Source of the DNA: a virus
DNA length: 60,725 bases
IMG/VR virus record: IMGVR_UViG_3300036985_003137
Location: 1-60,725 of that record
Direction: 5' to 3' (one strand)
The notes beneath the pieces were generated by a model. It did no database searches. It was given only the letters and a program-made list of their open reading frames with translations, and was not told the origin of the DNA. Positions 1-37,139 of this stretch are shown here, in pieces (the stretch's first letter is position 1; every line of letters begins with the position of its first letter). The position numbers and the translations under genes are program-made.

Positions 1-113
1 AAACTGTTAATGAGCGATTACGTAGTCCTCTTGGATTATTTAGTGTTCCTGAAACATTTACCGACAACAACATGCAACTGATCTTAGATAGATTAGCTGC
101 TTACTATTCTTAA
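1..113 (+). CDS. 3' end of an unidentified replication-region gene (partial)
   Basis: The frame starting at base 3 is open to a TAA at 111-113 and encodes the last 36 residues of a protein whose start lies left of the window. The visible residues are an ordinary mixed sequence ending LAAYYS, with no recognisable motif. It sits directly before the SSB gene on the same strand. In N4 that place belongs to the replication cluster (gp42-gp44 region), so a replication role is likely but only inferred from position. Confidence 0.6.
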   Translation, partial: TVNERLRSPLGLFSVPETFTDNNMQLILDRLAAYYS

Positions 114-141
114 TTTTCACAACAACAAAGAGAAAAACAAC

Positions 142-861
142 ATGTCATTATTAGCAAATTTAACTACCGACGATTCAATTGAAGATGAAAGAGATTCCGT
201 TGGTGGTGGTGGTGTATTAGAGTCAGGGATTTACAATGCAACTGTAACCCTTGCATATTTATCTACAGCAGCATCTGGTGCTACAGGCTTAGTTCTTCAA
301 TTTAAAACTGAAGATGATAGAGTTATCCGTAGTACTCAGTGGGTTGTATCTGGTACAGCTAAAGGATGTAAAAACTATTATGAACGTGATGGCAAGAAGA
401 ATTACTTACCTGGCTTCTTAATTGCTAATTCATTAGCTAAACTTACAACAGGTAAAGAGATTTCTGAATTAGATACAGATGAGAAAGTCATTAATGTATA
501 TAACCCAGAAGCAAAAGCTGAAGTACCTACGAAAGTTCCTATGATTACTGAATTATTAGGTAAAGAAATTACCATTGGTTTGATTAAACAAATCTCAGAT
601 AAAAGTGCTAAAGGTGATGATGGTCAATACCATCCAACTGGTGAAACCAGAGAAGAAAATGAGATTGATAAGTTCTTCAATGCTGAGTCTAAATTAACCA
701 CAACTGAAATTAAAGCAGGTGTTTCAGCTCCTACATTTATCACTACATGGGATCAAAAATGGTCTGGTGTTACTCGTGATCGTAGTACAAAAACAGGTGG
801 TACTGCTGGCGCTCCTAAAGGTGCAGTATCTAAAAAACCTGCATCTAGTTTATTTGCTTAA
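142..861 (+). CDS. Single-stranded DNA-binding protein, N4 gp45-like
   Basis: This 239-residue acidic protein begins with a short disordered stretch and a GGGG linker. A beta-rich core follows (about 25-150), and it ends in a Lys/Ala/Gly-rich tail closing with SSLFA. Length and layout resemble the N4 SSB (gp45), which coats single-stranded DNA in replication and recombination and in N4 activates late transcription by host RNA polymerase. It lies just before a RuvC-like resolvase gene, as expected for a replication/recombination block. The start follows a purine-rich stretch rather than a classical Shine-Dalgarno. The call rests on size, composition and synteny; no catalytic motif is expected for an OB-fold protein. 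Confidence 0.7.
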   Translation: MSLLANLTTDDSIEDERDSVGGGGVLESGIYNATVTLAYLSTAASGATGLVLQFKTEDDRVIRSTQWVVSGTAKGCKNYYERDGKKNYLPGFLIANSLAKLTTGKEISELDTDEKVINVYNPEAKAEVPTKVPMITELLGKEITIGLIKQISDKSAKGDDGQYHPTGETREENEIDKFFNAESKLTTTEIKAGVSAPTFITTWDQKWSGVTRDRSTKTGGTAGAPKGAVSKKPASSLFA

Positions 862-870
862 GGAATAATT

Positions 871-1158
871 ATGTCAGAAATTGAAGAAAAGGTTGATGTT
901 GTAGAATCCCCTACCTCATTTGCAATTGAATCTATTGATCAGATGTATAGTCTATTCCATCAGTGGCATGCAGAGAAATGTGGAGTATTAAACCATATGC
1001 TTAACATACCTGAAGGTACAGTTATTGAAGACTCAGCTGGTATTAAGCATGAGCTGTCTAATGAATACCTAGCCGGATTTAAATCAGGTGTAGAGGTGGC
1101 ATTAATCGAACTTACAGAGATGCCATTTACTATTACACCTAGTGTCGAGCCTACTTAA
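871..1158 (+). CDS. Hypothetical protein between SSB and resolvase
   Basis: A 95-residue acidic protein (many Glu in the first 12 residues) with no recognised domain. The start is supported by an AGGAAT ribosome site 9 bases after the SSB stop. The 3' end overlaps the resolvase frame by 17 bases, so the three genes are probably one translationally coupled unit. The position matches a conserved small N4-like gene of unknown function near gp46. Confidence 0.7.
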   Translation: MSEIEEKVDVVESPTSFAIESIDQMYSLFHQWHAEKCGVLNHMLNIPEGTVIEDSAGIKHELSNEYLAGFKSGVEVALIELTEMPFTITPSVEPT

Positions 1159-1702
1159 GGTTATTGGACTTGATCCCTCCCTAAGAAATTGGGGAGTGGT
1201 TGTTGCTACACTAGATCAAGCCAGTAATGTCTTAACTGTTCAATCTGTTTCTGTTATCCAACCTGACCTATCTAGCTTAAGTACTAAAAAGCAAAACCTT
1301 TTAGACTTAGCTTCATCTATCTGGCTTTATTCTAATGTCCTTAGTCTCATTAAAGATGCTGACATTATCTGTGCTGAAATTCCTCAAGGGAGTCAATCAG
1401 CCAGAGCTTCAATGGCATCTGGAATATGCCTAGGGGTACTAGGAAGCCTTGCTAATCAAGTTGATTTACCCTTTATTACGGTATCACCTCACGAGGTTAA
1501 ATTAGCCGGATATGGGTCAAGATTGGCTACTAAGAAACAAATGATTGAATGGGCTGTAGCAAAACATCCTGAAGCCATATGGCCTATGTATAAATCCAAC
1601 GGTCAGATGGTAATTAATGAAGGCAAGGCAGAACACATGTGTGATGCTTTAGCTGCAATATACGCAGGAATGAATCATCCTGCTTTTATCACCCAATTAT
1701 GA
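1142..1702 (+). CDS. RuvC-like Holliday junction resolvase / RNase H-fold nuclease
   Basis: The 186-residue protein shows the RuvC pattern: a first strand IGLDPSLRNWG (Asp near residue 11), a central acidic strand IICAEIP (Glu near 80), and a C-terminal helix with EHMCDALAA (Asp near 168). Family members cut four-way DNA junctions with two metal ions, here probably resolving replication intermediates before packaging. The only sensible start is a GTG at 1142 inside the upstream gene; there is no clear Shine-Dalgarno, so coupling to the preceding gene is likely. The fold call is good; the exact substrate is inferred. Confidence 0.8.
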   Translation: MSSLLKVIGLDPSLRNWGVVVATLDQASNVLTVQSVSVIQPDLSSLSTKKQNLLDLASSIWLYSNVLSLIKDADIICAEIPQGSQSARASMASGICLGVLGSLANQVDLPFITVSPHEVKLAGYGSRLATKKQMIEWAVAKHPEAIWPMYKSNGQMVINEGKAEHMCDALAAIYAGMNHPAFITQL

Positions 1703-1711
1703 GAAATTATT

Positions 1712-1981
1712 ATGAGAATCCAATTATCTTCCGCTGAAATTTTAAAAGCTGTACACCAATATGTTGGTACATTAGGTATTAACCTTTCCAATAAAGCTGT
1801 CAATATTGATTTTGTTCAAAGACAGAAATTAGGGTTAACTGCTGATGTCACTATTATAGATGAATCTGATTCAACTAGAATTATTGCAGGTGGTACTTTA
1901 GAAATTACTGATGTATTACCTACGGCTCCTAATGCTCCGATTAATGACTTAACTGATGATACTCAAAGTATCTTTAGCTAA
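1712..1981 (+). CDS. Small conserved hypothetical protein
   Basis: An 89-residue soluble acidic protein with no recognised motif. The N-terminal half looks helical, the middle beta-rich (TADVTIID, GGTLEITDV), and the end is a disordered Asp/Pro/Asn-rich tail. It follows the resolvase by 9 bases and its TAA shares the final A with the ATG of the next gene, so it belongs to the same transcript. Its position matches small genes near N4 gp48-gp49 of unknown role. Confidence 0.65.
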   Translation: MRIQLSSAEILKAVHQYVGTLGINLSNKAVNIDFVQRQKLGLTADVTIIDESDSTRIIAGGTLEITDVLPTAPNAPINDLTDDTQSIFS

Positions 1982-2157
1982 TGAGTACCATTAAGGGATT
2001 CTTATATTTCCTTTTAGCCTGCATTGTTGGAGGCATTGGAATATCTATTATGACTGCGGGAGCATTAATAGGGATTCCTTTGTTGTTTAGTTTAGGAATT
2101 TTTGGTGTATTCATGTTCATAAAAGAAGCCAGAGATCAAGATTCAACAGACCTATAA
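1981..2157 (+). CDS. Small two-helix membrane protein
   Basis: A 58-residue frame starts at an ATG overlapping the previous stop codon (TAATG). It is very hydrophobic, with two probable transmembrane helices (about 5-25 and 28-46; residues such as FLYFLLACIVGG and LIGIPLLFSLGIFGVF) and a charged end KEARDQDSTDL. It is the last gene before the bidirectional terminator. Role unknown; an inner-membrane peptide is all that can be claimed. Confidence 0.6.
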   Translation: MSTIKGFLYFLLACIVGGIGISIMTAGALIGIPLLFSLGIFGVFMFIKEARDQDSTDL

Positions 2158-2163
2158 CAAATT

Positions 2164-2189
2164 AGCCCCCTTAATTGGGGGCTTTTTTT
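2164..2189 (+). terminator. Rho-independent terminator between convergent modules
   Basis: A 7-bp perfect stem (AGCCCCC / GGGGGCT) with the loop TTAATT is followed by seven T residues. It ends the rightward SSB-resolvase transcript 3 bases before the stop end of the leftward vRNAP gene. The T tract favours rightward termination; the leftward side has only a weak TAAT run. Confidence 0.85.
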
Positions 2190-2191
2190 AT

Positions 2192-5100
2192 CTAAACTAA
2201 TAAGCCAATAGTCATCCGTTTATATAACGAATCCCAATATCCAAATACCCCATCCCTTAGTGGATTATACCCAGCATGGTGTATTAATGAACTATCTGTA
2301 ATCACAGGACCTAGATGGACTAGTTGATTAAATAACAGCATCGTCATTACTCTACCAGGTTGTTCTTTAGAAATTCTAACTAACTCTTTCTGAATATATA
2401 AGAAATATTTAGTAAAGAGTGTAAATCCCATATCATCAGAATACTGCAGAGTGCGTTGCATAGGCGTAGAGTATTGAACGAATGCACTATTTGCTCTAGC
2501 TACGGCATCAATGTGTACCATTGGATTAGTTTTATTCATTTGGTGTTGATACATCGCATATCTAGCTACAAAATCTGATAACTGAGTAATATGTGCTAGT
2601 GCTTTATATGCACCAGATTCTCTAGTCATTAACACTGCTTTAAGGGCTGTTAGAGCTGAGGCAGGAATACCTTCACTCATGATATCAAACTGTTTTTCAA
2701 GCTGTGTTCTAAAGCCAAATTCAGCATCTGCATCAAGATCTTCTACAATTGTAGGTAGTAAACCCGCTTCAATTAAAGGAGTCACAGGATTTCTTTTGAT
2801 AGCGTCTTGCAGCTGTATAATTTGTCGCTCATCCTCTTTAGTTGCACGCCCTAACTCTTTCTTCAGTAGTAAAGCATCAAGGTGTTTCTTATCATTAAGA
2901 TACTGTGTTGCCCCTTTAAAGGCCACTGAGAAGTAATGTGCCATATTCTTTAATGGAATACCTTCTAGCATTAACCTAGATACGTTACTAAAAATATTAC
3001 CAAGTAAAACTGTACCACTAACAACAACAATTTTATCCTTCATATCAGACACAATTTCTTGCCATCCAGCTTCTGCTCTTGTTACAAACATAGCAGCACG
3101 TTTAGCATACCGTTTAGCTTCTGCTGGAGATTTACCTCGTGCTTTAGCGGACATCTCTAAGGACTCTTCAACAAAGGATATAACCAGCTTCTGAATAATA
3201 TTAATAGACTTTAGGTCCATTATATTGTCAGACTGACCTGCTTCAAGGCGATGAGCTCTTTCATTATTAGCTCTTTCAAATGGTGCTGCCATAGATACTT
3301 TACGATACCCAAATACCATATCCAATGTTTGATTGTTAACCATAATATGTTCGTTACCAAATATGTCTAATGCAGCTGCTTTAGTTTTTTCAGGTAGTCG
3401 ATACCAAATTGATCTCAGTTCTGCATCTTCAGATTTAGGACCTACTTCTACCATCTTCTGTCTATCAACAGCATTACTAGCAGTGAAATTATCAAACAAT
3501 GCTTTCATAGCTTCTTTATTGTGTTCTTCAGTACTTTGCTTTCCTAAGAGCGAACCAGCTAATGTACCTAGCACAGCATCAAAGCTATTACGTCTTTCTA
3601 ATACTGAGTTCTTCATATTCTCACTCATTAGATATACCCAGTTAGTTATGACACCTTCTGAGTTATATTCAGGAGCCATATATGCTTCAGCTATATTAGG
3701 ATTAAAAGCTATGGCATATGTTGCTGCTTTCATACTACTACGTTTCGATTTGATGTGTGCTCTTGCTTCAGCTTCTTTCAGGCCTTCTGGGGTATTGAGA
3801 TTTTGTTCCCCTGTTGTAACCCTAACTTCAGTAGACGAATTGCTGCCCATCTGCATAACCCCACCTACTTGTGAAGGTGGTTTCATATCACGCTGGACAT
3901 AATAGTGTCTTGGAGACTGATCAGCATCATCTGGATCCCGTTGTAGTTCACCTACTTGCTCATACCCAAGCTCCCTTAATCGCTTTCCTTCTTTATCATC
4001 CCCAACACGGATTTTAGTGAAGGGATTATACTTTTCATGGATGTTACCAAATGGTGCTTTAGAAGGATCACTGTCATAGATATTTGTTAACTCAATATGT
4101 GCTAAATGAGCGTGCATAAGTAACGCATACTCCATACCATTGACCTCTTCTTTAGGTCTTGCAGCTTCAATCTTCATTACCTCACTAACAGCAGCCCTAT
4201 CTACTTCAGGCGTATGTCTTAATGTAAAGAGTGTTGCTAACTTTGAAACCATAGGCTCAATTTCATCTATCTTGGTTTGAGTAAGTTTATTATTAGCTTC
4301 CCCAAAACTGTGAATGATCTGATACACATTACGTTTCAGAACTTTAACCTTAACTTCACCTGTAGCACTGTAGTACCCAAGACCTTCTGCATTAGTAAGC
4401 ATTTGATTATAGGTAGCATCACTAGATGTCAGAGCATTCTTTAGTTCTAGGGACTGAGCTGTAATGTGCTCTTCTAACTTAGTTGGATCAGCTAGTAGGT
4501 TTTGCATTTCTTGAAGTGAATATCCTTTAAGGAGTGCACTCATGTTGGATTTTAATACAACAGCAGTAATAGCATTCTTCACAGCAGGAGTAAGATTCTT
4601 ACCCTTGTTAACGAAGGTTTCCAAGACATTTTTGGTTGTACTATCAATCATAGTTTTACGGTCTTTATCTAAGAGATCTCGACCTAAACGTAACAGCTCT
4701 ACCCATTGATCATATCCTTTTACGTTATTGATTAAACCAGCAACGACACCTAACTTACTTCCTTTTTTAGGGTCATTAAGGAGTGTTAACATCATAGATA
4801 GAAATTCTTGCTGTTTGTGTGAAACGTGTTTCTTCACTAACCCTGCAATAGCTCGAACCAGTACAAATCTATTATGCTGAACGAAGTGTGAATCTAAACC
4901 AGTAATAACACTCTTACCTGCAGCGTTAGCTAACTTATCTAACTTGGACTCTACGTCACGTATTGGAGATGCCTCAGCTTCTCGTTGTAACTCAAGGACA
5001 GCTTGATAGGATAATTCAGTATCAACTAATTTACTGATTAACGTATCAAGTCGGTGATTACTAAGAGATGACTCATGTGTGCTAGTCCATCCATGTATTG

Positions 5101-8100
5101 CATCTAAGATCTTCTCAAAGATTGATTGTAGTTTCTTTGCCCATGACTGTTTACCTTTACTGGTTTTGTTTACGACGTGTTTATCCAATAACGCATGAAA
5201 GCCAGGATTAGTTAATCCAACTGCAGCAAACCTTGCTAAGTAATCTGATTTACCTTCTGCATTTAACGTAACTTTAAAGATTGAGTCATAAAGGTGTTCT
5301 GCTTCTTTGGTTGATGTAGTACCAAAGTCACTACCGTAGAATTCATTAGGTGTGAGGGTAGTTCTAACTGATTCATACAAGGCTCTTAGGTCTCTGTATG
5401 CTTGGAAGGTATGTAGCTCATTTCCTTTACCAAACGCAGCAATAGTGGCATATACCTGTTCCATGACAAAGGCTTGTTTACTATCTGTAACTAAACCAGA
5501 TTTAACTAATTCTTTGCTAAGTGGTGTGAGATTTTCCGAAGCATTTCTTTTCCACACTCCAGCAGCATCAAGTTTCTTAGATTTAATAGCCGATTTAATA
5601 ACACCAAAGGGTCCATGGAGCTTAGTAACTACAGAGTTAAGTAAAGATTTAAGGTGTGTTTCAAATGCTGCATCTGTTGTATTACTTGATAAGGCATCAA
5701 AGGTCTCTGTGGTCGAAAAGTTGGTCGTAGCATTAGCTTTCATAGGGAGATTTAGGTTAGCCTGGTATACCTCTTTAGTTTCCTTAGCTACATCAATTAA
5801 ATCAGATATATCATCTATGAAGGTACGTAATCCTGTTGCGTCTTTATCGGTTAGACCTAGAAGATGTTTAACAGCATTTGTAAATTGTTCCCATCTTTTA
5901 CTTATTACACCTTTAATTTTATTGAGCACATTTTTTTGAAAGTCGGTATCTGTTAAACCATGTGCAACAAATTCTTGTAACATAGCGAACTTAGCTTCCT
6001 TTGAGGTAACTGCATTCGGTTGGGCTAGAAAGTCACCGTACTGCTCTACTAAACCTGGATTAGCTTCTTCAATTGAAGTCCTTAGACGCTCCAAACTGTT
6101 AATAGCATTTCTGGCTTTGATGTTTAAACTGTCACTACCGAGTGTTATACCTTGTTGGCTCTTATCAATTGTGTTTGCTATGGAAGCATGTATTAACTCA
6201 TGTAGTAAGACAGCTGCTATAGAATCAGTTTGCCCCATCTTTGGTGTCATGATGATAATACGTTGACCATCCTCGTCTGAAATGAATCTGCCTAAATCGT
6301 CTTTATATGTGTGTGCCTCACCATCTACTTCTGGATCCAGGTAATAAATCTCCAGATTATCAGGTAATAAGGGGACGATTTGCTCAAGTAATTTTAGTTT
6401 ATATGCCTCTTCCTTTTCTACACTTAATGCTGCTTTTAACTCTTCGTGTATCTCCCCAAATGTTGTGGCTTTTTGTAGTGTATCTATTAAAGTAGACGGA
6501 GTTATGGACATACCTAACTTGTGTGTAGCCTTGTTTAATGCTGCCATATCTTTAGGCTTATTAATTTCTGAAAGTTTCTTTTCGATACTTTCGCGATATT
6601 CATCTGTTACTAGGGCTTCTGCACCATTACGAGAATACTGATTTGCACTACCTGTTGCGTTAAGTGCCTCAAGTTTAACTCTATCTACACTAATAGCCTG
6701 AGCTTGGAGATCTCTATGCATGTCGGCAAGATTAGTCCAACCAAGTTTTTTTGATTCTGTAGCCACCATGTCATTTATAGAGTCTAGCTCTTCTGTAGTT
6801 AAGTCTTGTTTACTTAACCATACTATTTGTCTTTCAATAGTATCTGCTAGTGCTTGAGTAGGTGAGTAACTTATCATCAGTTCAAGGAAGGCCTCATTAA
6901 GATATTTAGTCATAATAGGCAAACCATCTATACCACCAACAGCAGCATCGAATAGATTGAGTGTAACTACTCCATCTTTTCTTGCCTTTTCACGGGCTAA
7001 GTACATTACAGCACTATCAAAAGAATGAGTCATTCTTGAGATTGTTGCAACAGCCATAGGACCAAATCTTCGAACCATTGCTGCATATAGTTTAGATTGG
7101 ATCTTATCCGCTCCTGTGATTACATTGATGTCATGATTACGATTATCATCTGGTATATTGGTGTCTTCCATCAATAACATGCCAGTATATATATTATCAG
7201 GATCAGATGAAGCTGTGGGCAGCATAGGTAATCCACCCTCTAGGATCATACCGTCTAATATTTTATCCATCTCTTCGTTAGATAAGCCTTCTAGGGCACG
7301 TCGAGTATCGCTTATATTATTTGGATCAAGAGTACCTGAAAATTCCATAGTGACTCCCTTTGTCTGATCCTTTACAAACTCAAGAGTTCCTTTACTTATG
7401 GATGCAGCAACCCGTTTTTCATACTGGTTAGCAGCAATTGTGCCCATAATACGTACAGCAGTATTGATCTTTTTTGTGTGTTCTAAAAAGTGTTCAAAGG
7501 TTACTTTCATAGAGTCAGTAATACTTTTACCTATGGTTATTTCATATGTAGCTCTAATTGCTGTCTCTAGCCCATGATTAAAGATAGGACTAGGATCTTG
7601 GATAATATTTTCCCCTTTCTGTATATACCCCATTAATTTTAGTGCGGATGTATTTGCAGGAATCGGTGTGTATGTACCTGAATGTTGAGGATGTAGTGCT
7701 GCAATAGTATTTAAAGCAGTAATAATACTTGCTCTGGTTTCTGCATTCTCTAATTCTCGTGATGCATACGCTTTAGAAATTACATCCTTAATTGTGATTA
7801 TGAAATCTGAACTAGTTTTAACTAATGCTGTATTGATACCTGCCCCAAAGAAAAACATTAATATAGGTTCTTTTACTACTTCTCTTAATGAATCTGAGGG
7901 GTCATTAGTATTTTCCTTTTTCATTTTTCCAATAAAGTGTTCTATTGCTCGTAGAGTTATTAGAACTTGCTTACCCAACACATGCTGAGTTTTATACTTA
8001 GTGATTTTTAGTTTTATTCCTTTGGTGGCGGCTGCTGTTAAACGTACTACTGCTTGCATAGCAGTATTCATATAAAGATCTTTACCGCCTTTACTTTTAT

Positions 8101-11100
8101 AGTCATCAAAGTGGGTTAATGCATCTTCAAGTGTATAAATACCAAATTGTTTATTAAATTCAATAGATTCTTCTACTGTTAGGTGTGCTCCTAATAGGTT
8201 TGTCGCAATAGCAGCACCATTAGTTTTACCATCTGATTCTGATGTAATGGTAGTAGTAAAAGAATCATCACCATTATTTTGGGCAAACTGTCTTTGAGCT
8301 AATGCCATTAAACCAGCAAACGCATGTGTATCTGTTTTAGCTTCTTGAACAGTAGCTACTACTATTGATTGATCTTCTTCTGTTAGCGTTCCGTTATCGC
8401 CTTGTTCTAATAACCTAACTAATGCATCAATAGCAGGCTGATATTTAGAGTATTTATTATCCAAATCTTCATTTAATTGAGCTGCAGTTTTAAGGTCTAA
8501 TGATTCAGCAACAAATTGCTCAAATACATCCATCTTTAAAGTATCAGATCCATCAAGCTTAATTGTTGTTTCCCAAGATTTATGGGACATGAGCCATCTT
8601 ATAACTTTACTAGACTGAGGATTAAAGACTTGACCTACAATCCCAGTACGTTGTTGTACGTACATTTCAGTTGAAAAGAATACTGCAATATCTTCAAGAC
8701 TGGGGTACCCTGCCATGAATCCTTTTAATTTATTTATGCTATCAAGTATGCCTTTTTGAGATGCTTCTACTCCAGGCATAAGATCAGCATGTACTAGTGG
8801 ATGTGTTCCACTAGGTGAGTATAAAGCAACATTTCCTGCTATGAGCTCTTGGTTCGTATCACTAAACCCCATGAAGGCACGTGATGTAGTAGCTGCAACG
8901 CCATAAGCTACTTTGTTTTCTGCTGCTATGTCATCACGAATTCTGCTAGGTACAATATGGTTATTGTCCTGTACATAATTAAAAGCTTCTGTACGTATAA
9001 TTTCAGCCTCTTTTTCATTGTCAAAAAGCTTAGATATAAATTGTTTAGAGGTCCTATTATAGATGATTAGTTCAGATACCTTATCAGATAACCTGGTTTT
9101 ACCATTTACTGGAGCCCCTTGTGCTAATTTAATAAAGGAGTGCGGTTTCTTCTGATCAGCTGTCTTTTGAGCTGGTGGTAAATCCTTATAGTATTTTGAG
9201 TCCTGAGCCAGTTGAATGTCCATCTCGGATATTTCAAAAGATTCCAAGTACTTATCTTTTATAAGAGCAGCAATAACTCTTCCACCAATAGACGTAGCTA
9301 GTTCGGGTGAAATATTATCAGGTGTTGCACTATTCTCTTTAATTGCTAACAATTTGAGTACGGTTTGTCCGATCTCATTTGCGGCTGCATTCTGTGTTGA
9401 CGTGGCCTCAGGAAATAACCTCAATAGTGCGACAGGTGTATTTTTTTCTTTCCGACCTACTAGAGCATTAGCCATATCTCCTGTAGGGATCCTACCTTCT
9501 AAAGACACAATATAGCTGTATGCACTAGCAGCAAATGCAGAAGCTAAGTTATCATCTATACTTAAAGTACCATCCTCTTCTACATTAATAAGGTCACTAG
9601 ATCTGTCTCTTCTTTCATTTGTTGGGGTTGATTTTATATTAACAATATTACCACCTTTGGCCGTGAAACCCTGTGCACTGAAACCAGCTAATATAGTATT
9701 ACTTAGGTCAGTTTTTAAGTCTCTAAAGTGCTTAAAGGCATCATTCTGTTCTTTTGTTACATCTTGACCTTTATTCAATTTAATAAGGGCAGCTATAGAC
9801 TTAATTGAGGATATAACATCTCGTGTTTTAGTTAATACAGTACTACCTAATTTTTGTATTAGGGTTTCTGACGTACGGTCTTGTATGCGTTTATCAGCTT
9901 TAGCTTCATCAGTTTGGTTATACTCACGGCCTGCAATAAGGCTTGATAATTCAGATGATTTGGCAGGGAATTCTGCTATCTCAGCTTCATGTTTAATCTT
10001 TAAGGCAGCAAGAGCTTTTTCATATTTCTCAATGTCTTGCTCTGTTCTATCGTTTTCATCACCTAAGTCCCGAATCTCTTCAGCGTGTCTTTGATATAGT
10101 GCTTCTTCTAACTTATCGACTTCATTAGGGACTCTTGTAGTAACTACTGCTTCTGGGTTATTGGTTACTGCTTTTTCCTCAGCTATCATCTTATTTAATG
10201 CATCTGGATCTGGGGTAGTATTATCTTCCTCAAATGTAGTGTCTTCTTCTGTACTAATATTACCTGGATCTTGGGTATTGGTAGTTGTACCTGTAGTGCT
10301 ACTGTTTGTCTTTCCAGGTGCGGTCCAGAGTGAGTATTTAATACCTTCTATGGTTTCCTGGGGTGTTTCGGTATAGCTTTTAGATTCTAATAAGGCTGCA
10401 GCTCGTTTTTCACCTGCCTGTGGATCTGTTGTTTCGTTGTGAGCATCTTTATCTCTTTGGTCTTTATCAAAGGTCATAAAGCTTGCCCCTTTCTCAATAC
10501 CAGCATTAACACTTTTTGTTATATTTTTGTGGTCAAATTCCTTATTCACATTGAGAAATATCACATCATCTTTGGAATAAACTGTTGAGTTTACAATATC
10601 TAAGGAACTCTTCGTTGCATGATCTCGCCACTGTTTAGTAATGAATGCAGATATTGATTTTTTACCTTTCGCCTCTTCCCCAATAATATGTGTTGCTATA
10701 TTAGATAAGGCTATATTTGTCTTATTCTTAGCATTAGCTGGGAGTGTTACCGTAATTTCCTTACCTACAGGTGTTTTAGCTGTGTTATTAATAGATTCAG
10801 TAGCACCTCCTTCTGTACCTACACTATCTGTTGATTTAACTACTGGTGGGTTACTAGTAGTAGCTTTTGTATTAGTAGTAGTAGTAGTAGTAGTAGTAGG
10901 TGGCACTATTGGTGGAGGGGCACTTGTAGTAGGGGCAGCAGTCTTACCTGTAACATGGCCTAACATTGATTTTAGATCATGTACTTCTTGTTGTATTCTT
11001 CCATAAGGACTGATGCCTGTTGCTAAGGTTTTTTGAAAGGTGTCATCTCCGACAGTATAATTACCTGGAACAGCTTGAGCTTCTATACCATCAATTAGGT

Positions 11101-13348
11101 CTGTAGGGGCATACTGTTTCCATACTTGACTATCTTTCTCACGAATAAGAGTAATCTTATCTTTCCCTTCCTTCTTACGACGCACATTAGCAGCTACAAT
11201 GGCTTCATCTTTTGCAGCTTGTCCTTCTACAAATTTTTGAAATAGTGCTTTGCTGGCAGTCTTTTCTTCTGGTGTAGCAGTAGGATCATTGATAGCATCC
11301 CAATGTTGACGCATACCCATATTCTTAGAAGATCCATCATAAATCTCATTGGACACAGCATTAGTATCTTTACCTTGATTCCGCTTATTTAGTGTCATTC
11401 TCAAGAGAGCGGTATCTACATCACTGAACATGCTTATATCTTTTTGACCCATAGCTAATGCTGTTGCTGCTTGTGCTTTAGTCAATCGACTACTCATAGC
11501 CAAACTAAGAACACGATTCTTAGCCTTAGTTACTACTTCAGGGTCAGCATGTGTAAGATTATCTACTGCCTCATTAGTACTTTTCTCAGAATTTACTTCT
11601 CCGTGTATCTGATCTAAGGTTGATTTAAGGGAGTCATAATTTACTTGTGCAGACGTTTCTTTTGCTTTTAATGCCGTAACATATCCGGTCATGCTGGGAT
11701 CTGACAGTGCTGCTAATTGATCTTGTTTAAGTTTTATGACTACATCTGCTTCTGCTACCCGCTCTATATTACCCGCTGCCTCTTCAGTCTTCTTAATACC
11801 TTGAAGGTTTGTAATTGTGGTATTAAGACCTTCCTCACTTAATATCTTAGATATATCTGTGACCTTTTTCTTAGCTACTGCAACAAGCTCATCTGCACTT
11901 TTTATTGCTTCGTCATGTATCTCAGTTATTTTTTCAGGTGTATACGGAGTTGTTCCTTCCTTAGGAGGTGCATTTGTATCAATAACACGTTGATGTAATC
12001 CAGTCATTGCTTCTTCAGGTGTAAGAGGAGAGTTAGAGTCTGCTGCTCCTGATATGTCACCTGATTTAGCTACAGCAGCTATACGGTCAGAGCTTTGTTT
12101 ATTCACTTCTGCATACGTACCTGCCTGCTCCTCTGTACTAGCTTGTTGTTCTTCTTTAGTTGTTTTTAATTTATCAACTACAGCATCTTTTGCTACTACA
12201 GCAGTATCTTTAGCTCCATTCATAGCTCTTACAGCCATGTGTGTTCCAGTAGCTTGTCCTAGTGAGGATACTCCTTCTAATACTGCTGATTTAGGATCTG
12301 CTACTCCAGTAGCTGCATATTGACCTGAGTATTCACCTAAACCTTCAGAACCCATTTCTAAGCCTACGCCTGTTGCTGCAGATTTAACTTTACCCATTAG
12401 TGCTTGTGATGCTAATAAGTTAACGTCAGAAGCAATCTCTGCTTTAATTGCAGGTTTAGCCAGCACATCCGATACTAATTTAGGATTAAGTAGATCACTT
12501 GGTGCCATTCGTTTAGCTAGTACATTTTCAGTAGCAGTACGTAAAGGTGCATTTAATAGTGCACCTCCTAAACCTATAGTAGCTGTATCTACAGCACCAA
12601 TAACCCCGCTTTTAATTAAATTTTCTTTTAAGAGTTCATCTCTATTTTGATTAATAAACTGTTGGGCTTCTTGGTTATCCCAAATATTTACACCCTCTTT
12701 TTGAATCATGTTTTGGAGTAACTCATTTTGTCCTGATGCCATATTGCCAAATGTTGCTCCAGTGTATACACCAGCTGCCGTTCCTAAAGGATTTCCTGTA
12801 AGACTGCCTAATGCTCCCCCAATAGCCATGCCCCCCATTGTAGGAATAGAGTTGGGAATTTGCTCTACAACTCCACCCCCTAATGCCTTAAAGTTTTCCC
12901 ATAGAGCATTTGCACCTTTACCAAGAGTTGGTGCATCAGCGCTGTCTCGATAGATGTTCTTAGCTACATCAGTAATACCCTGTCCGGCTGCGGCAAAGGA
13001 TTGTGTATTACCTTCTGCGTCCTTAGCTGCATCATATAAAGCAGATAACTCTCGAGCTGCTGCTGATGATGGATTAGCTTGTCTATATCTCTCGTCTGCT
13101 TGTAACTGTTTAACTGCTGCTTCAGCATCCTTATTGATCAAGTTTATACCCTGATTAAAGGACGAATCTAGGTTGTGCATCCCTTTTTCCCAAGGGCTGT
13201 CTGCCACTGCAGCTAGCGCATTTTGCTGATTAACGGCTGCTTCAGGGCTTAATATATAAGCCTTAAATGCTTCAGTTTTCTGTTGTGCCGCTACTGCAAC
13301 TTCTAGTGCTTTTTGTGTAAAAGTATCTTGAGATATTGGGGATGCCAT
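2192..13348 (-). CDS. Giant virion-encapsidated RNA polymerase (vRNAP), N4 gp50-like
   Basis: The 3718-residue protein is packaged in the head and injected to transcribe early genes from hairpin promoters. Residues 1-880 are Ala-rich and helical with a glycine-zipper stretch (about 168-210), possibly for membrane passage, then a Pro/Thr linker near 820-840. The central T7-type polymerase shows motif I ending at Arg1567 before FNPQ, motif A with Asp1706 (DGKTNG), motif B with Arg1822, Lys1826 and Phe1834, an HSFDS block and motif C with Asp2134. The spacing from motif A Asp to motif B Arg (116) is near the 107 recalled for N4. Phe1834 replaces the usual Tyr, and motif C has Phe-Asp instead of His-Asp. 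Downstream, H2383-E-L-I-H2387 with Glu2459 resembles a zinc metallopeptidase. The remaining 1200 residues are helical, of unknown function. It is the last gene of the leftward virion module. Confidence 0.93.
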   Translation of the reverse strand: MASPISQDTFTQKALEVAVAAQQKTEAFKAYILSPEAAVNQQNALAAVADSPWEKGMHNLDSSFNQGINLINKDAEAAVKQLQADERYRQANPSSAAARELSALYDAAKDAEGNTQSFAAAGQGITDVAKNIYRDSADAPTLGKGANALWENFKALGGGVVEQIPNSIPTMGGMAIGGALGSLTGNPLGTAAGVYTGATFGNMASGQNELLQNMIQKEGVNIWDNQEAQQFINQNRDELLKENLIKSGVIGAVDTATIGLGGALLNAPLRTATENVLAKRMAPSDLLNPKLVSDVLAKPAIKAEIASDVNLLASQALMGKVKSAATGVGLEMGSEGLGEYSGQYAATGVADPKSAVLEGVSSLGQATGTHMAVRAMNGAKDTAVVAKDAVVDKLKTTKEEQQASTEEQAGTYAEVNKQSSDRIAAVAKSGDISGAADSNSPLTPEEAMTGLHQRVIDTNAPPKEGTTPYTPEKITEIHDEAIKSADELVAVAKKKVTDISKILSEEGLNTTITNLQGIKKTEEAAGNIERVAEADVVIKLKQDQLAALSDPSMTGYVTALKAKETSAQVNYDSLKSTLDQIHGEVNSEKSTNEAVDNLTHADPEVVTKAKNRVLSLAMSSRLTKAQAATALAMGQKDISMFSDVDTALLRMTLNKRNQGKDTNAVSNEIYDGSSKNMGMRQHWDAINDPTATPEEKTASKALFQKFVEGQAAKDEAIVAANVRRKKEGKDKITLIREKDSQVWKQYAPTDLIDGIEAQAVPGNYTVGDDTFQKTLATGISPYGRIQQEVHDLKSMLGHVTGKTAAPTTSAPPPIVPPTTTTTTTTNTKATTSNPPVVKSTDSVGTEGGATESINNTAKTPVGKEITVTLPANAKNKTNIALSNIATHIIGEEAKGKKSISAFITKQWRDHATKSSLDIVNSTVYSKDDVIFLNVNKEFDHKNITKSVNAGIEKGASFMTFDKDQRDKDAHNETTDPQAGEKRAAALLESKSYTETPQETIEGIKYSLWTAPGKTNSSTTGTTTNTQDPGNISTEEDTTFEEDNTTPDPDALNKMIAEEKAVTNNPEAVVTTRVPNEVDKLEEALYQRHAEEIRDLGDENDRTEQDIEKYEKALAALKIKHEAEIAEFPAKSSELSSLIAGREYNQTDEAKADKRIQDRTSETLIQKLGSTVLTKTRDVISSIKSIAALIKLNKGQDVTKEQNDAFKHFRDLKTDLSNTILAGFSAQGFTAKGGNIVNIKSTPTNERRDRSSDLINVEEDGTLSIDDNLASAFAASAYSYIVSLEGRIPTGDMANALVGRKEKNTPVALLRLFPEATSTQNAAANEIGQTVLKLLAIKENSATPDNISPELATSIGGRVIAALIKDKYLESFEISEMDIQLAQDSKYYKDLPPAQKTADQKKPHSFIKLAQGAPVNGKTRLSDKVSELIIYNRTSKQFISKLFDNEKEAEIIRTEAFNYVQDNNHIVPSRIRDDIAAENKVAYGVAATTSRAFMGFSDTNQELIAGNVALYSPSGTHPLVHADLMPGVEASQKGILDSINKLKGFMAGYPSLEDIAVFFSTEMYVQQRTGIVGQVFNPQSSKVIRWLMSHKSWETTIKLDGSDTLKMDVFEQFVAESLDLKTAAQLNEDLDNKYSKYQPAIDALVRLLEQGDNGTLTEEDQSIVVATVQEAKTDTHAFAGLMALAQRQFAQNNGDDSFTTTITSESDGKTNGAAIATNLLGAHLTVEESIEFNKQFGIYTLEDALTHFDDYKSKGGKDLYMNTAMQAVVRLTAAATKGIKLKITKYKTQHVLGKQVLITLRAIEHFIGKMKKENTNDPSDSLREVVKEPILMFFFGAGINTALVKTSSDFIITIKDVISKAYASRELENAETRASIITALNTIAALHPQHSGTYTPIPANTSALKLMGYIQKGENIIQDPSPIFNHGLETAIRATYEITIGKSITDSMKVTFEHFLEHTKKINTAVRIMGTIAANQYEKRVAASISKGTLEFVKDQTKGVTMEFSGTLDPNNISDTRRALEGLSNEEMDKILDGMILEGGLPMLPTASSDPDNIYTGMLLMEDTNIPDDNRNHDINVITGADKIQSKLYAAMVRRFGPMAVATISRMTHSFDSAVMYLAREKARKDGVVTLNLFDAAVGGIDGLPIMTKYLNEAFLELMISYSPTQALADTIERQIVWLSKQDLTTEELDSINDMVATESKKLGWTNLADMHRDLQAQAISVDRVKLEALNATGSANQYSRNGAEALVTDEYRESIEKKLSEINKPKDMAALNKATHKLGMSITPSTLIDTLQKATTFGEIHEELKAALSVEKEEAYKLKLLEQIVPLLPDNLEIYYLDPEVDGEAHTYKDDLGRFISDEDGQRIIIMTPKMGQTDSIAAVLLHELIHASIANTIDKSQQGITLGSDSLNIKARNAINSLERLRTSIEEANPGLVEQYGDFLAQPNAVTSKEAKFAMLQEFVAHGLTDTDFQKNVLNKIKGVISKRWEQFTNAVKHLLGLTDKDATGLRTFIDDISDLIDVAKETKEVYQANLNLPMKANATTNFSTTETFDALSSNTTDAAFETHLKSLLNSVVTKLHGPFGVIKSAIKSKKLDAAGVWKRNASENLTPLSKELVKSGLVTDSKQAFVMEQVYATIAAFGKGNELHTFQAYRDLRALYESVRTTLTPNEFYGSDFGTTSTKEAEHLYDSIFKVTLNAEGKSDYLARFAAVGLTNPGFHALLDKHVVNKTSKGKQSWAKKLQSIFEKILDAIHGWTSTHESSLSNHRLDTLISKLVDTELSYQAVLELQREAEASPIRDVESKLDKLANAAGKSVITGLDSHFVQHNRFVLVRAIAGLVKKHVSHKQQEFLSMMLTLLNDPKKGSKLGVVAGLINNVKGYDQWVELLRLGRDLLDKDRKTMIDSTTKNVLETFVNKGKNLTPAVKNAITAVVLKSNMSALLKGYSLQEMQNLLADPTKLEEHITAQSLELKNALTSSDATYNQMLTNAEGLGYYSATGEVKVKVLKRNVYQIIHSFGEANNKLTQTKIDEIEPMVSKLATLFTLRHTPEVDRAAVSEVMKIEAARPKEEVNGMEYALLMHAHLAHIELTNIYDSDPSKAPFGNIHEKYNPFTKIRVGDDKEGKRLRELGYEQVGELQRDPDDADQSPRHYYVQRDMKPPSQVGGVMQMGSNSSTEVRVTTGEQNLNTPEGLKEAEARAHIKSKRSSMKAATYAIAFNPNIAEAYMAPEYNSEGVITNWVYLMSENMKNSVLERRNSFDAVLGTLAGSLLGKQSTEEHNKEAMKALFDNFTASNAVDRQKMVEVGPKSEDAELRSIWYRLPEKTKAAALDIFGNEHIMVNNQTLDMVFGYRKVSMAAPFERANNERAHRLEAGQSDNIMDLKSINIIQKLVISFVEESLEMSAKARGKSPAEAKRYAKRAAMFVTRAEAGWQEIVSDMKDKIVVVSGTVLLGNIFSNVSRLMLEGIPLKNMAHYFSVAFKGATQYLNDKKHLDALLLKKELGRATKEDERQIIQLQDAIKRNPVTPLIEAGLLPTIVEDLDADAEFGFRTQLEKQFDIMSEGIPASALTALKAVLMTRESGAYKALAHITQLSDFVARYAMYQHQMNKTNPMVHIDAVARANSAFVQYSTPMQRTLQYSDDMGFTLFTKYFLYIQKELVRISKEQPGRVMTMLLFNQLVHLGPVITDSSLIHHAGYNPLRDGVFGYWDSLYKRMTIGLLV

Positions 13349-31373: not shown

Positions 31374-32306
31374 ATGCAAGCACAGATTGAACAGCACTAC
31401 AGTAAAGACAAAATAAGACGAATGATGAAATCATTCATTGTCGATAACATTGAGCCAGAGCAGATTGAACAAGGTGTAAAGCTGTTAACTGAGTGGATAA
31501 ATGTTGATTATTATCCCAGTAAGAATCGTAGATTGTTACATGTACGTGATTTAGATTTATCTAAGATAGTTGTTGATGTAATAGTAGGCACACTATCATT
31601 TACTGAAGAAACATTGCTTACAAATGCTGTAGGACAGTTAGCAGGTTTATTAAAGATGTCTGACAAGTTAGATAGTATTAAAACTATGTCAGAAGTATTG
31701 GCTATCTTATGTGAGCTTGATTTATATGATCTAAATAAAGATGATGAAACTGATAGCTGGACTATTATCAGTTTAATTGAACTACCTGAAGAAATCCAAG
31801 ACCAACAAGTACGTAGTATGTACCTTCCTCCAATGATTGTTAAGCCAGAAATACTTACACATAATATGGATAGTGGGTATCAGACACAGCATTCTAGTTT
31901 GATCTTAGGTAGTGGAAATTACCATGAAGGAGACATTACATTAGATGCATTGAACATTATGGCATCAGTACCCTTGAGTATAAATATCGAGTTTATCAGC
32001 ACTATTAAAGAAGAGCCAAATAAAGAAATCTCAGCTGATTTGATATTAGAAGATTACCCAGAATTAACAGATGAAGAGGCTATTGAAGAAGCAAAGTTTA
32101 GGATTGCTATGTTTGATAGATTTGTAAAACAGTCACAAGAAGTATGTGATTTATTGATTGAGACTGGGAATAAATTCTATCTAAATCAAAAGGTTGATAA
32201 AAGAGGTAGAGTATATGCACAAGGATATCATGTAAGTACAGCAGGTGCATCGTACAAGAAAGCAGCAATAGAGTTATACAACGAAGAAATAGTAGAAGGC
32301 ATTTAG
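31374..32306 (+). CDS. RNA polymerase II small subunit, N4 gp15-like
   Basis: 310 residues. The C-terminus carries the T7-family T/DxxGR motif as DKRGRVYAQ (Asp275, Arg279), followed by AGYK-type spacing and an ELYNEEIVEG end like the T7 segment after its DWRGR motif. The rest would be the N-terminal domain. N4 splits RNAPII into gp15 (about 269 residues) and gp16 (about 404), and this pair (310 and 413) has the same break point after the DxxGR block. The product pairs with the next gene's protein to transcribe middle genes. ACCGGAGATAGTC gives a good ribosome site. Confidence 0.9.
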   Translation: MQAQIEQHYSKDKIRRMMKSFIVDNIEPEQIEQGVKLLTEWINVDYYPSKNRRLLHVRDLDLSKIVVDVIVGTLSFTEETLLTNAVGQLAGLLKMSDKLDSIKTMSEVLAILCELDLYDLNKDDETDSWTIISLIELPEEIQDQQVRSMYLPPMIVKPEILTHNMDSGYQTQHSSLILGSGNYHEGDITLDALNIMASVPLSINIEFISTIKEEPNKEISADLILEDYPELTDEEAIEEAKFRIAMFDRFVKQSQEVCDLLIETGNKFYLNQKVDKRGRVYAQGYHVSTAGASYKKAAIELYNEEIVEGI

Positions 32307-32341: not shown

Positions 32342-34639
32342 ATGTTCAAAAGATATAGTGGATGGCAGTGGATGTTAATCAATGCAGCAAATTTAGCAGG
32401 CAAAGATAAATTAACTCATGAACAAAGATTAGATTGGGCTACAGAAAATTTAGGTAAATTGGAAAGTCTTGTAGACGAAGCAGGTAGTGATTACCCACAG
32501 TATATCTCTGCTGTCATGGGTATTAGAAAAGCACAGAATAAACATCCTACAGGACTCTTAGTTACTGTAGATGCAGTATGTAGTGGTATGCAAATAATGA
32601 GTGCTTTAACTGGGTGTTTAAATGGTGCTAAGGCTACTGGATTAGTTGATGATGATCGTAGACCTGATGCATATGCAAGTGTTACAGAAGCCATGAATAA
32701 GAAATTAGGTGGCACACTAAATATCAGTCGTGATGATGCAAAGAGGAGTGTTATGACCTCATTTTATGGTAGTGAGAAAGTACCAGGAGAAGTATTTGGT
32801 GAAGATACAATTGAGCTAGATACTTTCTATGAAGTCATGCAACTAGTAGCACCAGGAGCTTGGGGACTGTTAGGTAAGCTAAAATCAGCTTGGAATCCAG
32901 GTGCATTAGCACATTCATGGAAATTACCAGATGGATTTGATGCTGTAGTTAAGGTCATGGCATCATTTGAGAAGCGGATTGAAGTAGATGAGTTAGATCA
33001 TTCCACATTCACATACTACTACAGCGAAAACCAAGGTAATAAGAAAGGTATTAGTCTTGTAGCTAACGTAGAGTAACTGCGTCACTCATTTGAGAAAATG
33101 AGCAGAAAACAAGGTGAATTGCTGGAACGCTAAGGGAGAAATCCTATGCCAATCAGCAGGTAAGCTTAGAGAGTAATCTCTTTGAAACTTCAGAGACTAG
33201 AACGAGAAGCCTGTATACAGGTCAATAATGTTCGTAGGATACTCAAGTGAGATCCGAAGTGCCTTGCTCCTACTGGAAACAGAGGATGAAGATATAGTCC
33301 GATACTCCAACGAAAGCTGGAGACTTAATATAAATAGTTCTATCCTTAAGCATCTAAGCAGTGTACTATTACATTGATTTAATTAATAAGGAGAAGAGAT
33401 GAAAACCGTAACTGTAAGAGCTAAAAGACCTATAGTTGATATAGCACAAGAACGCTTTGGATCATTAGTAGCCAAAGAGTTTAGTCATAAAGATGCTATT
33501 GGGAATGTATATTGGATTTATACCTGTGATTGTAACAAGTTGCTCACAGCTAGATCCAATGTGATTAAACACCAAACTATACTAAAAAATGATCCTGAAT
33601 TACCTTCATGTGGTTGCGTAGGAATTGCCAGAAAAACAAGGCATGGATATCGCACAGCAAAGAACACACACCCATTATACAGAGTCTACAGAGGCATGAT
33701 GGGTAGATGTTATAGCGAAAGTAATGAAGGAGCTAAGTGGTATGGTGATATTGGTGTAACTGTATGTGATGAGTGGAAAAATAACCCTGAAGCATTTATT
33801 AAATGGGGTTTAGATAATGGATGGAAGCCGAGTCTACATATAGACAAAGATATTCTATCTGAACAGCTATCAATTCATCCTCACATATACAGCCCACAGA
33901 CGTGTCAGTTTGTATCAGCAAAAATCAATGTAGGTTTTGCAACAAACAGGGACAATTACGGTAAGCACCCTAATGTAAAATTATCTCATGATGATGTAGA
34001 AGCTATTAATATTTTAAGAGCTAAAGGATTATCAGGACCTAAGATTGCAGAACAATTTGGTGTTACAGCATGTTCTATTTATGCAGTAATTAAGGGCTAA
34101 GAGAAGCGTCTTAGCTTAACATTTGAGTTCATAGCATTGATGCATTTATTATGCGTGAGATGCACAGAAGATGTAATTACAACCAAGATACGCTTATGGA
34201 TGTTAGTAACCTAATTGAAATTGAGTTACTATCCAGAGAACTAATGAAGCCAGATATATTAGGTAAGAAGTCTCAAGCTACGTATTATGAAGAGTTGTAC
34301 CGTTGTAGTGGTGTTTGTAGTATAGCAGCTGTAAATCATATCACTAATACTACGGTTAAAGGCTTAGATAGTACCTATTTAGGTGAAATGAGTAGAATTA
34401 TCAACATGATCCTAGAACATAAATCCTTTGAATTGGTCTCATTACATGATGCATTTTCAGCTCATGCTAATAATGTAAACCAAGTAAGATGGCATTATAA
34501 AGAGATCTTAGCTGAATTAGCTGACAGTAACACTTTGAGAGATGTTCTAACTCAAATCAATCCACGTATGGAACAGTTTCAGAAGTTGTCTAATACTCTA
34601 TCTGAAAAGATTAGACAGAGTAGTTATGCACTTACATAG
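32342..34639 (+). CDS. RNA polymerase II catalytic subunit, N4 gp16-like; exons 32342-33069 and 34126-34639
   Basis: Spliced, the two exons encode 413 residues, close to N4 gp16. Exon 1 has motif A TVDAVCSGMQ (Asp77) and motif B with Arg130, Lys134 and Tyr142 (AKRSVMTSFYG). Exon 2 restores NVVHSIDAFIMREM, the conserved block before motif C, and then motif C SLHDAF (His350, Asp351). Without splicing, exon 1 stops 7 bases into the intron (TAA at 33074) and exon 2 has no proper start. The subunit works with the 310-residue gene product upstream (35-base gap). Join positions are inferred from frame, protein alignment and intron pairing. Confidence 0.88.
33070..34125 (+). mobile_element. Group I intron (IA-type) in the RNAPII catalytic subunit gene
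   Basis: A 1056-base insertion with group I landmarks. The exon ends in U (33069). P1 pairs ACGU (33066-33069) with GCGU (33079-33082), giving a U-G pair at the cleavage site. P10 pairs AACU (33075-33078) with AGUU at the exon 2 start (34126-34129). P7 pairs GACUA (33195-33199) with UAGUC (33295-33299), the latter inside GATATAGTCC. A P9-like hairpin (33305-33322) has a GAAA loop. The intron ends in G (34125). The endonuclease gene lies after the core. Confidence 0.88.
33399..34100 (+). CDS. Intron-encoded HNH homing endonuclease
   Basis: 233 residues. The N-terminus (ERFGSLVAKEF, then CDCNKLL and PSCGC) resembles the zinc-binding front of phage HNH endonucleases. The middle (THPLYRVYRGMMGRCY, YGDIGVTVCDEW, LHIDKDI) carries the conserved core of that family, and the C-terminal 45 residues (LSHDDVEAINILRAKGLSGPKIAEQFGVT) form a helix-turn-helix like NUMOD DNA-binding tails. 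It would cut intron-free RNAPII genes to drive homing. The start follows AAGGAGAAGAG. The frame ends 25 bases before the 3' splice site and looks intact. Confidence 0.85.
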   Translation: MKTVTVRAKRPIVDIAQERFGSLVAKEFSHKDAIGNVYWIYTCDCNKLLTARSNVIKHQTILKNDPELPSCGCVGIARKTRHGYRTAKNTHPLYRVYRGMMGRCYSESNEGAKWYGDIGVTVCDEWKNNPEAFIKWGLDNGWKPSLHIDKDILSEQLSIHPHIYSPQTCQFVSAKINVGFATNRDNYGKHPNVKLSHDDVEAINILRAKGLSGPKIAEQFGVTACSIYAVIKG

Positions 34640-35689: not shown

Positions 35690-36103
35690 ATGTCACCAAC
35701 AATTTCATGTGTAGGAACAATACCTACCAAAACTTATCCAACAGATGCTGGATTTGATCTCATAGCAAGCAGAGATATTATAATTCCTGCCAGAGATAGC
35801 GCTATTATTGGTACAGGTACCCATATTAGTATTCCTTTAGGTTATGTAGGTTTAATTTGGAGTCGAAGTGGACTCTCTTGTAAACATAAACTTGAGGTAG
35901 GTGCAGGATGCATTGATTATGGATATACAGGTGAATTATTAGTTCATTTACACAATTTATCTGATACCCTTTATGATGTACATAAGGGAGATAAGATTGC
36001 ACAACTTTTAATTATGCCTATACTACTTCCTACATTTGAATCAGTAGACAAACTACCTGAAGCAGATAGAGGAAATAATGGATTTGGAAGTACTGGTAAA
36101 TAA
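35690..36103 (+). CDS. dut: dUTP diphosphatase (trimeric type)
   Basis: 137 residues with all five motifs of homotrimeric dUTPases in order: I AGFDLIAS, II RSGLS (within WSRSGLSC), III GAGCIDYGYTGEL with the catalytic Asp, IV GDKIAQLLI, and V near the end RGNNGFGSTGK. It hydrolyses dUTP to dUMP and pyrophosphate, keeping uracil out of phage DNA and supplying dUMP to the thymidylate synthase encoded 1 kb downstream. The gene ends 5 bases before the tRNA. Confidence 0.95.
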   Translation: MSPTISCVGTIPTKTYPTDAGFDLIASRDIIIPARDSAIIGTGTHISIPLGYVGLIWSRSGLSCKHKLEVGAGCIDYGYTGELLVHLHNLSDTLYDVHKGDKIAQLLIMPILLPTFESVDKLPEADRGNNGFGSTGK

Positions 36104-36107
36104 CCCA

Positions 36108-36183
36108 GGGACAATAGCACAATGGTTAGTGCTCTGACCTCATAAGTCAGCGGTTATAGGTTCAAGTCCTATTTGTCCCACCA
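36108..36183 (+). tRNA. tRNA with CAU anticodon (Met elongator or Ile2)
   Basis: A 76-base cloverleaf: acceptor GGGACAA / TTGTCCC, D-arm GCAC / GTGC, anticodon arm CTGAC / GTCAG around CTCATAA, T-arm CCTAT pairing with ATAGG around a TTCAAGT loop, discriminator A, and encoded CCA. CAU reads AUG in elongator tRNA-Met, or AUA if the C is changed to lysidine. The identity cannot be settled from anticodon alone. An AT-rich phage might benefit from AUA decoding. Confidence 0.95.
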
Positions 36184-37033: not shown

Positions 37034-37139
37034 TGCAGAATGGGTAAATTTAAGTTTATTAGTTTTAGGTACTCTCTGGGTATTTGGATTCATTCAATTT
37101 GGTAAAACGGAGAGAGATAATGACAACACGAGCAGATAA
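37026..37139 (+). CDS. 37-residue single-span membrane peptide
   Basis: A short frame overlaps the end of the upstream gene (ATGATTAA) and runs past the start of thymidylate synthase. It has one transmembrane helix (LSLLVLGTLWVFGFIQF) and a charged end ERDNDNTSR. Overlap on both sides suggests coupled translation, but it could be chance. Confidence 0.4.
   Translation: MINAEWVNLSLLVLGTLWVFGFIQFGKTERDNDNTSR

Follow-up and report, generated by a model that had tools for sequence, protein, structure and literature searches.

Tyr639 and His784 of T7 RNA polymerase (RNAP) have long been studied by mutation as ribose selectors of single-subunit RNAPs. The window analyzed here, a viral stretch of 60,725 nucleotides that comprises IMG/VR record IMGVR_UViG_3300036985_003137, encodes a giant virion RNA polymerase (vRNAP) in which the position of T7 Tyr639 and N4 Tyr678 is taken by a phenylalanine, Phe1834. 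This raises the question of how an enzyme that lacks the tyrosine hydroxyl distinguishes rNTPs from dNTPs, and whether it does so less strictly, as a sequence-only reading of the locus had proposed.

By its sequence features, the gene product is a single-chain N4-type (Schitoviridae) virion RNA polymerase and homologue of N4 gp50, putatively packaged and injected with the genome: The PHROGs family phrog_2206 ‘virion RNA polymerase’ matches residues 35–3704 of its 3718 residues (E=0), the motifs T/DxxGR, A, B, and C of N4-type vRNAPs are all found, and the protein contains no cysteine, a recognized trait of such vRNAPs (PMC3715699; PMC2784036). Its surroundings are Schitoviridae-like, with families for the major head protein, the portal, the large terminase (TerL), a two-subunit RNAPII, and SSB. 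No close DNA relative of the first 25 kb of the genome was found among isolated phages, and a search for relatives with the vRNAP protein alone yielded 0 confirmed viral contigs; an alignment of known vRNAPs was required as the query to reach viral relatives. Likewise, a PDB sequence search with the vRNAP returned nothing relevant, and N4 was found by fold comparison only. The AlphaFold2 model of residues 1136–2301 (pLDDT 88.9, pTM 0.89) has N4 mini-vRNAP 2po4 as its best PDB match (Z 28.7, 963 residues aligned, rmsd 5.2), followed by T7 RNAP (Z 21.5). This comparison, which the sequence-only reading had suggested, yielded aligned ranges, and the geometry of His2108 relative to Phe1834 as discussed below is inferred from alignment. 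The genome further contains genes for thymidylate synthase, the ribonucleotide reductase small subunit, and dUTPase (37084–37956, 38225–39214, and 35690–36103, all on the + strand), so that the phage may alter dNTP pools during infection; a single tRNA gene adjoins the dUTPase gene (36108–36180, + strand; Rfam RF00005, 72 bits). The features relevant to the following analysis are compiled in Table 1.

Table 1. Coordinates of the virion RNA polymerase, its active site residues, and related polymerase genes in the window.
Feature	Position	Strand	Basis or remark
Giant virion RNA polymerase (vRNAP, N4 gp50 homologue)	2192..13348	-	3718 aa
Modeled RNA polymerase domain, residues 1136-2301	6446..9943	-	AlphaFold2
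Gln1566-Arg1567; Arg1567 is the invariant Arg (T7 Arg425 / N4 Arg424)	8648..8653	-	
Motif A, Asp1706 (metal ligand) to Gly1711 (T7 Gly542 position, no steric gate)	8216..8233	-	
Motif B / O helix, Arg1822 to Phe1834	7847..7885	-	alignments
Phe1834 (TTT), equivalent of T7 Tyr639 / N4 Tyr678	7847..7849	-	alignments
His2108 (CAT), equivalent of T7 His784	7025..7027	-	C-terminal profile comparison
Ser2112, second-ranked Phe-correlated column (T7 Gly788 position)	7013..7015	-	column scan
Motif C, Asp2134 (N4 Asp951)	6947..6949	-	
RNAPII first subunit (N4 RNAP1-like)	31374..32306	+	phrog_2166, E=1e-95
RNAPII second subunit, exon 1, motif B Tyr142 (32765-32767)	32342..33076	+	phrog_2051, E=3e-87
RNAPII second subunit, exon 2, starts with the His784-type motif VHSIDAF	34127..34639	+	phrog_2051 positions 250-400
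DNA polymerase gene of the phage	47968-50556		

The assignment of Phe1834 was approached by two alignments that concur, and the fold match of the model described above agrees with them as a third line. When 19 full-length vRNAPs including that of the window are aligned with MAFFT, Arg1822 (AGA), Lys1826 (AAA), and Phe1834 (TTT) pair with Arg666, Lys670, and Tyr678 of N4 mini-vRNAP, while N4 Arg424, Asp559, Tyr612, and Asp951 are kept as Arg1567, Asp1706, Tyr1759, and Asp2134. An independent profile–profile comparison with the RNAPs of T7, SP6, phiKMV, and Syn5 equates the same three motif B residues with T7 Arg627, Lys631, and Tyr639 and places no other tyrosine at the Tyr639 position. The motif B residues and the TTT codon named in the sequence-only reading, as well as their equivalence to T7 and N4, are thus borne out. 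One might still argue that another residue is the true counterpart of Tyr639 or that TTT is a miscalled TAT, given that three phenylalanines follow one another (1832–1834) and that identity to known vRNAPs is just 15–23%. The spacing of eight residues from the lysine and the following glycine nevertheless fit, the T7 profile alignment agrees, and Phe is also found in the independent relatives L020 and L021 and in the isolates LIT1, LUZ7, and DEV; because both nearest relatives (37% and 31% identical) have Phe as well, a sequencing error is rejected. We consider the probability of either error negligible.

To place this residue in the family, IMG/VR was scanned with search patterns that avoid both studied sites. 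Among the resulting 157 vRNAPs, dereplicated to <90% identity and with reference isolates counted in, the site is occupied by Tyr in 104 and by Phe in 53 and by no other residue, proportions that depend on sampling. N4 Glu557, Asp559, Gly564, Tyr612, Arg666, and Lys670 are invariant in this set, as are Arg424 and Asp951 wherever the sequence covers them. Phe already occurs in LIT1 and Littlefix among the first 19 vRNAPs, and also in LUZ7, DEV, 98PfluR60PP, and AM.P2; the state spans Pseudomonas phages as well as a large environmental clade. In a tree of 124 sequences, from which the motif B columns had been left out, the N4 half consists of Tyr enzymes throughout (51/51), whereas the other half comprises 38 Phe and 35 Tyr enzymes; the tree requires at least 8 Tyr/Phe changes (9 in a second count), and the window vRNAP groups with L020 and L021 on a branch of their own with 100% support, all three having Phe. 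Phe therefore recurs naturally in a large vRNAP clade and is not peculiar to the window genome: The sequence-only reading was right about its presence and overstated its rarity. Tyr678 in motif B is listed as catalytic in papers on N4-like phages; its absence from the window vRNAP is shared by all Phe-type bona fide vRNAPs and does not exclude membership. With LIT1, LUZ7, and PEV2 as known members without it, Tyr678 is not family-defining.

Two side observations concern this region. The residue after Tyr/Phe (Gly1835 in the window, 7844–7846) is Gly in nearly all vRNAPs and Ser in 7/157, with L252, L253, L220, L078, and L017 among the bearers; in T7-like RNAPs this column holds Ser or Ala in 11/84 sequences. 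Moreover, a 914-kb bacterial contig (L501; Xenophilus sp. Marseille-Q4582, NZ_CAKAKO010000006.1, ~1–4900) contains a Phe-type vRNAP frame that stops shortly past motif B and may be a piece of a phage that has decayed or been inserted; this frame was excluded from the counts, as it ends before the His position. N4-type phages are regarded as lytic.

We then asked what accompanies Phe elsewhere in the active site. As the whole-domain profile comparison ended before the His motif, the C-terminal part was compared on its own, which aligned ‘MTHSFDSA’ of the window with ‘FVHSQDGS’ of T7 and thereby identified His2108 as the equivalent of His784; in vRNAPs this position lies three residues before a conserved aspartate. 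All 53 Phe vRNAPs have His at this position and none of the 157 dereplicated vRNAPs combines Phe with another residue, whereas among the 104 Tyr vRNAPs 55 have Gly (N4 is one of these), 25 Gln, and 16 His, the rest having Ser, Ala, or Thr, with one unread. Tyr lineages nested in or near the Phe clade carry Gln (L326/L098/L294/L065; L081; L078), while L312 and L278, both inside the Phe clade, retain His. In a later scan that served as a hold-out, the single additional Phe lineage (L430) has His, and Gln is found in each of five additional Tyr lineages.

The two positions evolve in correlation, as supported by a comparison of dependent and independent models of evolution (LR 33.6; 32.3 when repeated on that tree and 32.5 on a FastTree tree built independently); none of 160 simulations under independence reached the observed value, their maximum being 11.4. 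Pagel-type tests of this kind can overstate coupling when few events drive the pattern, and the strongly supported independent sister pairs for Phe/His number 4–5, too few for a sign test, in place of which the likelihood test and the simulations were used. In a scan for columns that correlate with Phe, the His column heads the mutual-information ranking of 590 usable columns and also comes first when the top 70 are tested by likelihood. It is followed by the column of Ser2112 and, in third place, by that of Gln1566 directly before the invariant Arg1567, so that the three top-ranked columns all lie at or beside T7 pocket residues. Mutual-information columns at N4 675, 669, and 619 were unconfirmed in phylogenetically independent pairs.

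Two other groups of polymerases provide a reference. All of 84 T7-like RNAPs have Tyr at 639 and His at 784, and the RNAPII of 28 of the phages with an N4-type vRNAP has Tyr at 30 of 30 loci. The RNAPII of the window genome keeps Tyr142, as the sequence-only reading had stated; it lies in exon 1 together with Arg130 and Lys134 of motif B, and the spliced product unites it with VHSIDAF, i.e., with a T7-type Tyr + His pair. A group I intron (33031–33322, + strand; RF00028, 69.3 bits) interrupts the second-subunit gene just upstream of the VHSIDAF codons (exon 1 32342–~33067, exon 2 from ~34127) and is accompanied by an HNH endonuclease ORF (33399–34100, + strand). T7-like enzymes keep both selectors, whereas vRNAPs may drop one; loss of both was never seen.

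In T7 RNAP, the residues around the incoming nucleotide and its sugar that have been randomized are Arg425, Gly542, Tyr639, and His784 (PMC4551944). We judge it probable that the window vRNAP is an ordinary RNA polymerase in which the 2′-OH would be sensed via His2108 with the help of the invariant Arg1567 and Gly1711 instead of via the Tyr hydroxyl. The ribose-checking pocket would then be composed of Phe1834 and His2108, where most other vRNAPs have Tyr with Gly or Tyr with Gln: Motif B would require an aromatic ring, His2108 would take over or back up the 2′-OH contact that is lost with the Tyr hydroxyl, and Gln1566 and Ser2112 would be retuned neighbors. Because Phe is strictly coupled to His and co-varies with further pocket residues, the pattern suggests a pocket that has been retuned and not lost. 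Such an enzyme would make RNA from early promoters, and its discrimination between rNTPs and dNTPs would probably be somewhat weaker than with Tyr, yet sufficient given the excess of rNTPs. Cellular rNTPs exceed dNTPs by about tenfold or more, so even a relaxed vRNAP would make mostly RNA. The absence of Phe without His among the vRNAPs is in line with the behavior of the T7 variant P266L/Y639F/H784A, which has Phe and no His and, in one assay with a natural template, was no longer active (PMC8155940), while Y639F/H784A serves for bulky 2′-modified substrates (PMC4551944).

A point against sensing by His2108 is T7 Y639F itself, which remains active with weakened rejection of dNTPs (PMC6511863; PMC8155940): It combines Phe with His and is clearly relaxed, so that His need not restore strictness. 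The same observation feeds the reading that Phe1834 admits dNTPs to a meaningful degree, with dNMPs at the per cent level in early transcripts or primers. T7 Y639F and Syn5 Y564F discriminate less against dNTPs or 2′-F-dNTPs (PMC6511863; PMC4538805), and the window vRNAP shares the Phe + His pair with the former; on the other hand, its pocket neighbors co-vary, so that what holds for a T7 single mutant may not apply to it; moreover, Arg1567 and Gly1711 are retained, and there is no sign of a dedicated use. We regard a naturally relaxed polymerase of this kind as possible, if doubtful. Similar caution applies to its extension to the family, namely that a large natural clade has a measurably relaxed Phe + His pocket, with dNMPs at the per cent level in early transcripts or replication primers or with tolerance of 2′-modified nucleotides, and that Tyr and Phe + His have been switched repeatedly under a rule that permits Phe only beside His; this we hold to be a tentative proposal. 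By analogy with T7 Y639F, somewhat relaxed selectivity is plausible, and the selectivity of the window vRNAP most likely falls somewhere between the levels of a Tyr enzyme and of T7 Y639F. In the sequence-only reading, the assignment of the residue and the analogy with Y639F are sound, while mixed transcripts as a function find no support.

An account that shares much with the one we favor, minus the retuning, is that Tyr and Phe are interchangeable without meaningful functional difference once His is present. It would explain the number of Tyr/Phe changes and the Tyr + His lineages L312 and L278 inside the Phe clade. Yet Tyr is invariant in the T7-like RNAPs, which all have His, as well as in the RNAPII enzymes and the N4 half of the tree; moreover, return to Tyr is often accompanied by loss of His, and two further pocket columns co-vary, which looks like coupling and not like drift. 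We therefore think near-neutral toggling rather unlikely. Far less probable still is a switch of the vRNAP toward DNA synthesis or DNA copying, which had been raised by analogy in the sequence-only reading and could draw on the necessity of N4 vRNAP for DNA replication, reported in work cited in PMC2784036. The phage encodes a DNA polymerase of its own, and the motifs of the vRNAP are those of RNA polymerases. Family A DNA polymerases carry a steric-gate Glu at the Asp+5 position of motif A; this residue is absent from the window vRNAP, which instead has Gly1711, equivalent to N4 Gly564 and T7 Gly542 and invariant in the 157 vRNAPs, and this glycine leaves room for the 2′-OH. DNA copying is rejected on these grounds, and a retuned RNA polymerase pocket is the preferred explanation.

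The window vRNAP resembles the known systems to different degrees. N4 vRNAP (gp50; mini-vRNAP structures 2po4, 3c3l, and 3c46) shares fold, domain plan, and catalytic residues, but has Tyr678 and a Gly (IGTGD) in place of Phe1834 and His2108 and is 17% identical over the polymerase domain. In T7 and Syn5 the Phe forms are engineered, the wild type of Syn5 RNAP having Tyr (PMC4538805), whereas Phe is natural in the window; equivalents of T7 Arg425, Gly542, and Lys631 are kept, while Gln1566 and Ser2112 differ from T7. The closest known systems also include LIT1, LUZ7, PEV2, DEV, and Littlefix (Schitoviridae; Migulavirinae, Littlefixvirus), whose giant vRNAPs likewise have Phe at N4 position 678 and, in the Pseudomonas phage sequences examined here, His at T7 position 784; at ~23–25% identity over the polymerase domain, they are distant from the branch of the window, L020, and L021. 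The Tyr-to-Phe substitution in LUZ7, LIT1, and PEV2 was noted in 2010 (PMC3715699, legend to Suppl. Fig. S2), with a remark that runs counter to what the T7 mutants showed; in the literature searched, which covered few subscription papers, we found neither a follow-up of this remark nor a mention of Phe–His coupling. The bare Tyr/Phe fact is consequently already known, and the new content is the Phe–His rule across the vRNAP family.

Taken as a family, the vRNAPs reveal that nature has varied both ribose-selector sites many times, in allowed combinations only. They thereby offer naturally occurring enzymes, among them the vRNAPs of the P. aeruginosa phages LIT1 and DEV, for probing the possible division of labor between the Tyr hydroxyl and His, and may be a source of natural polymerases for making 2′-modified RNA.
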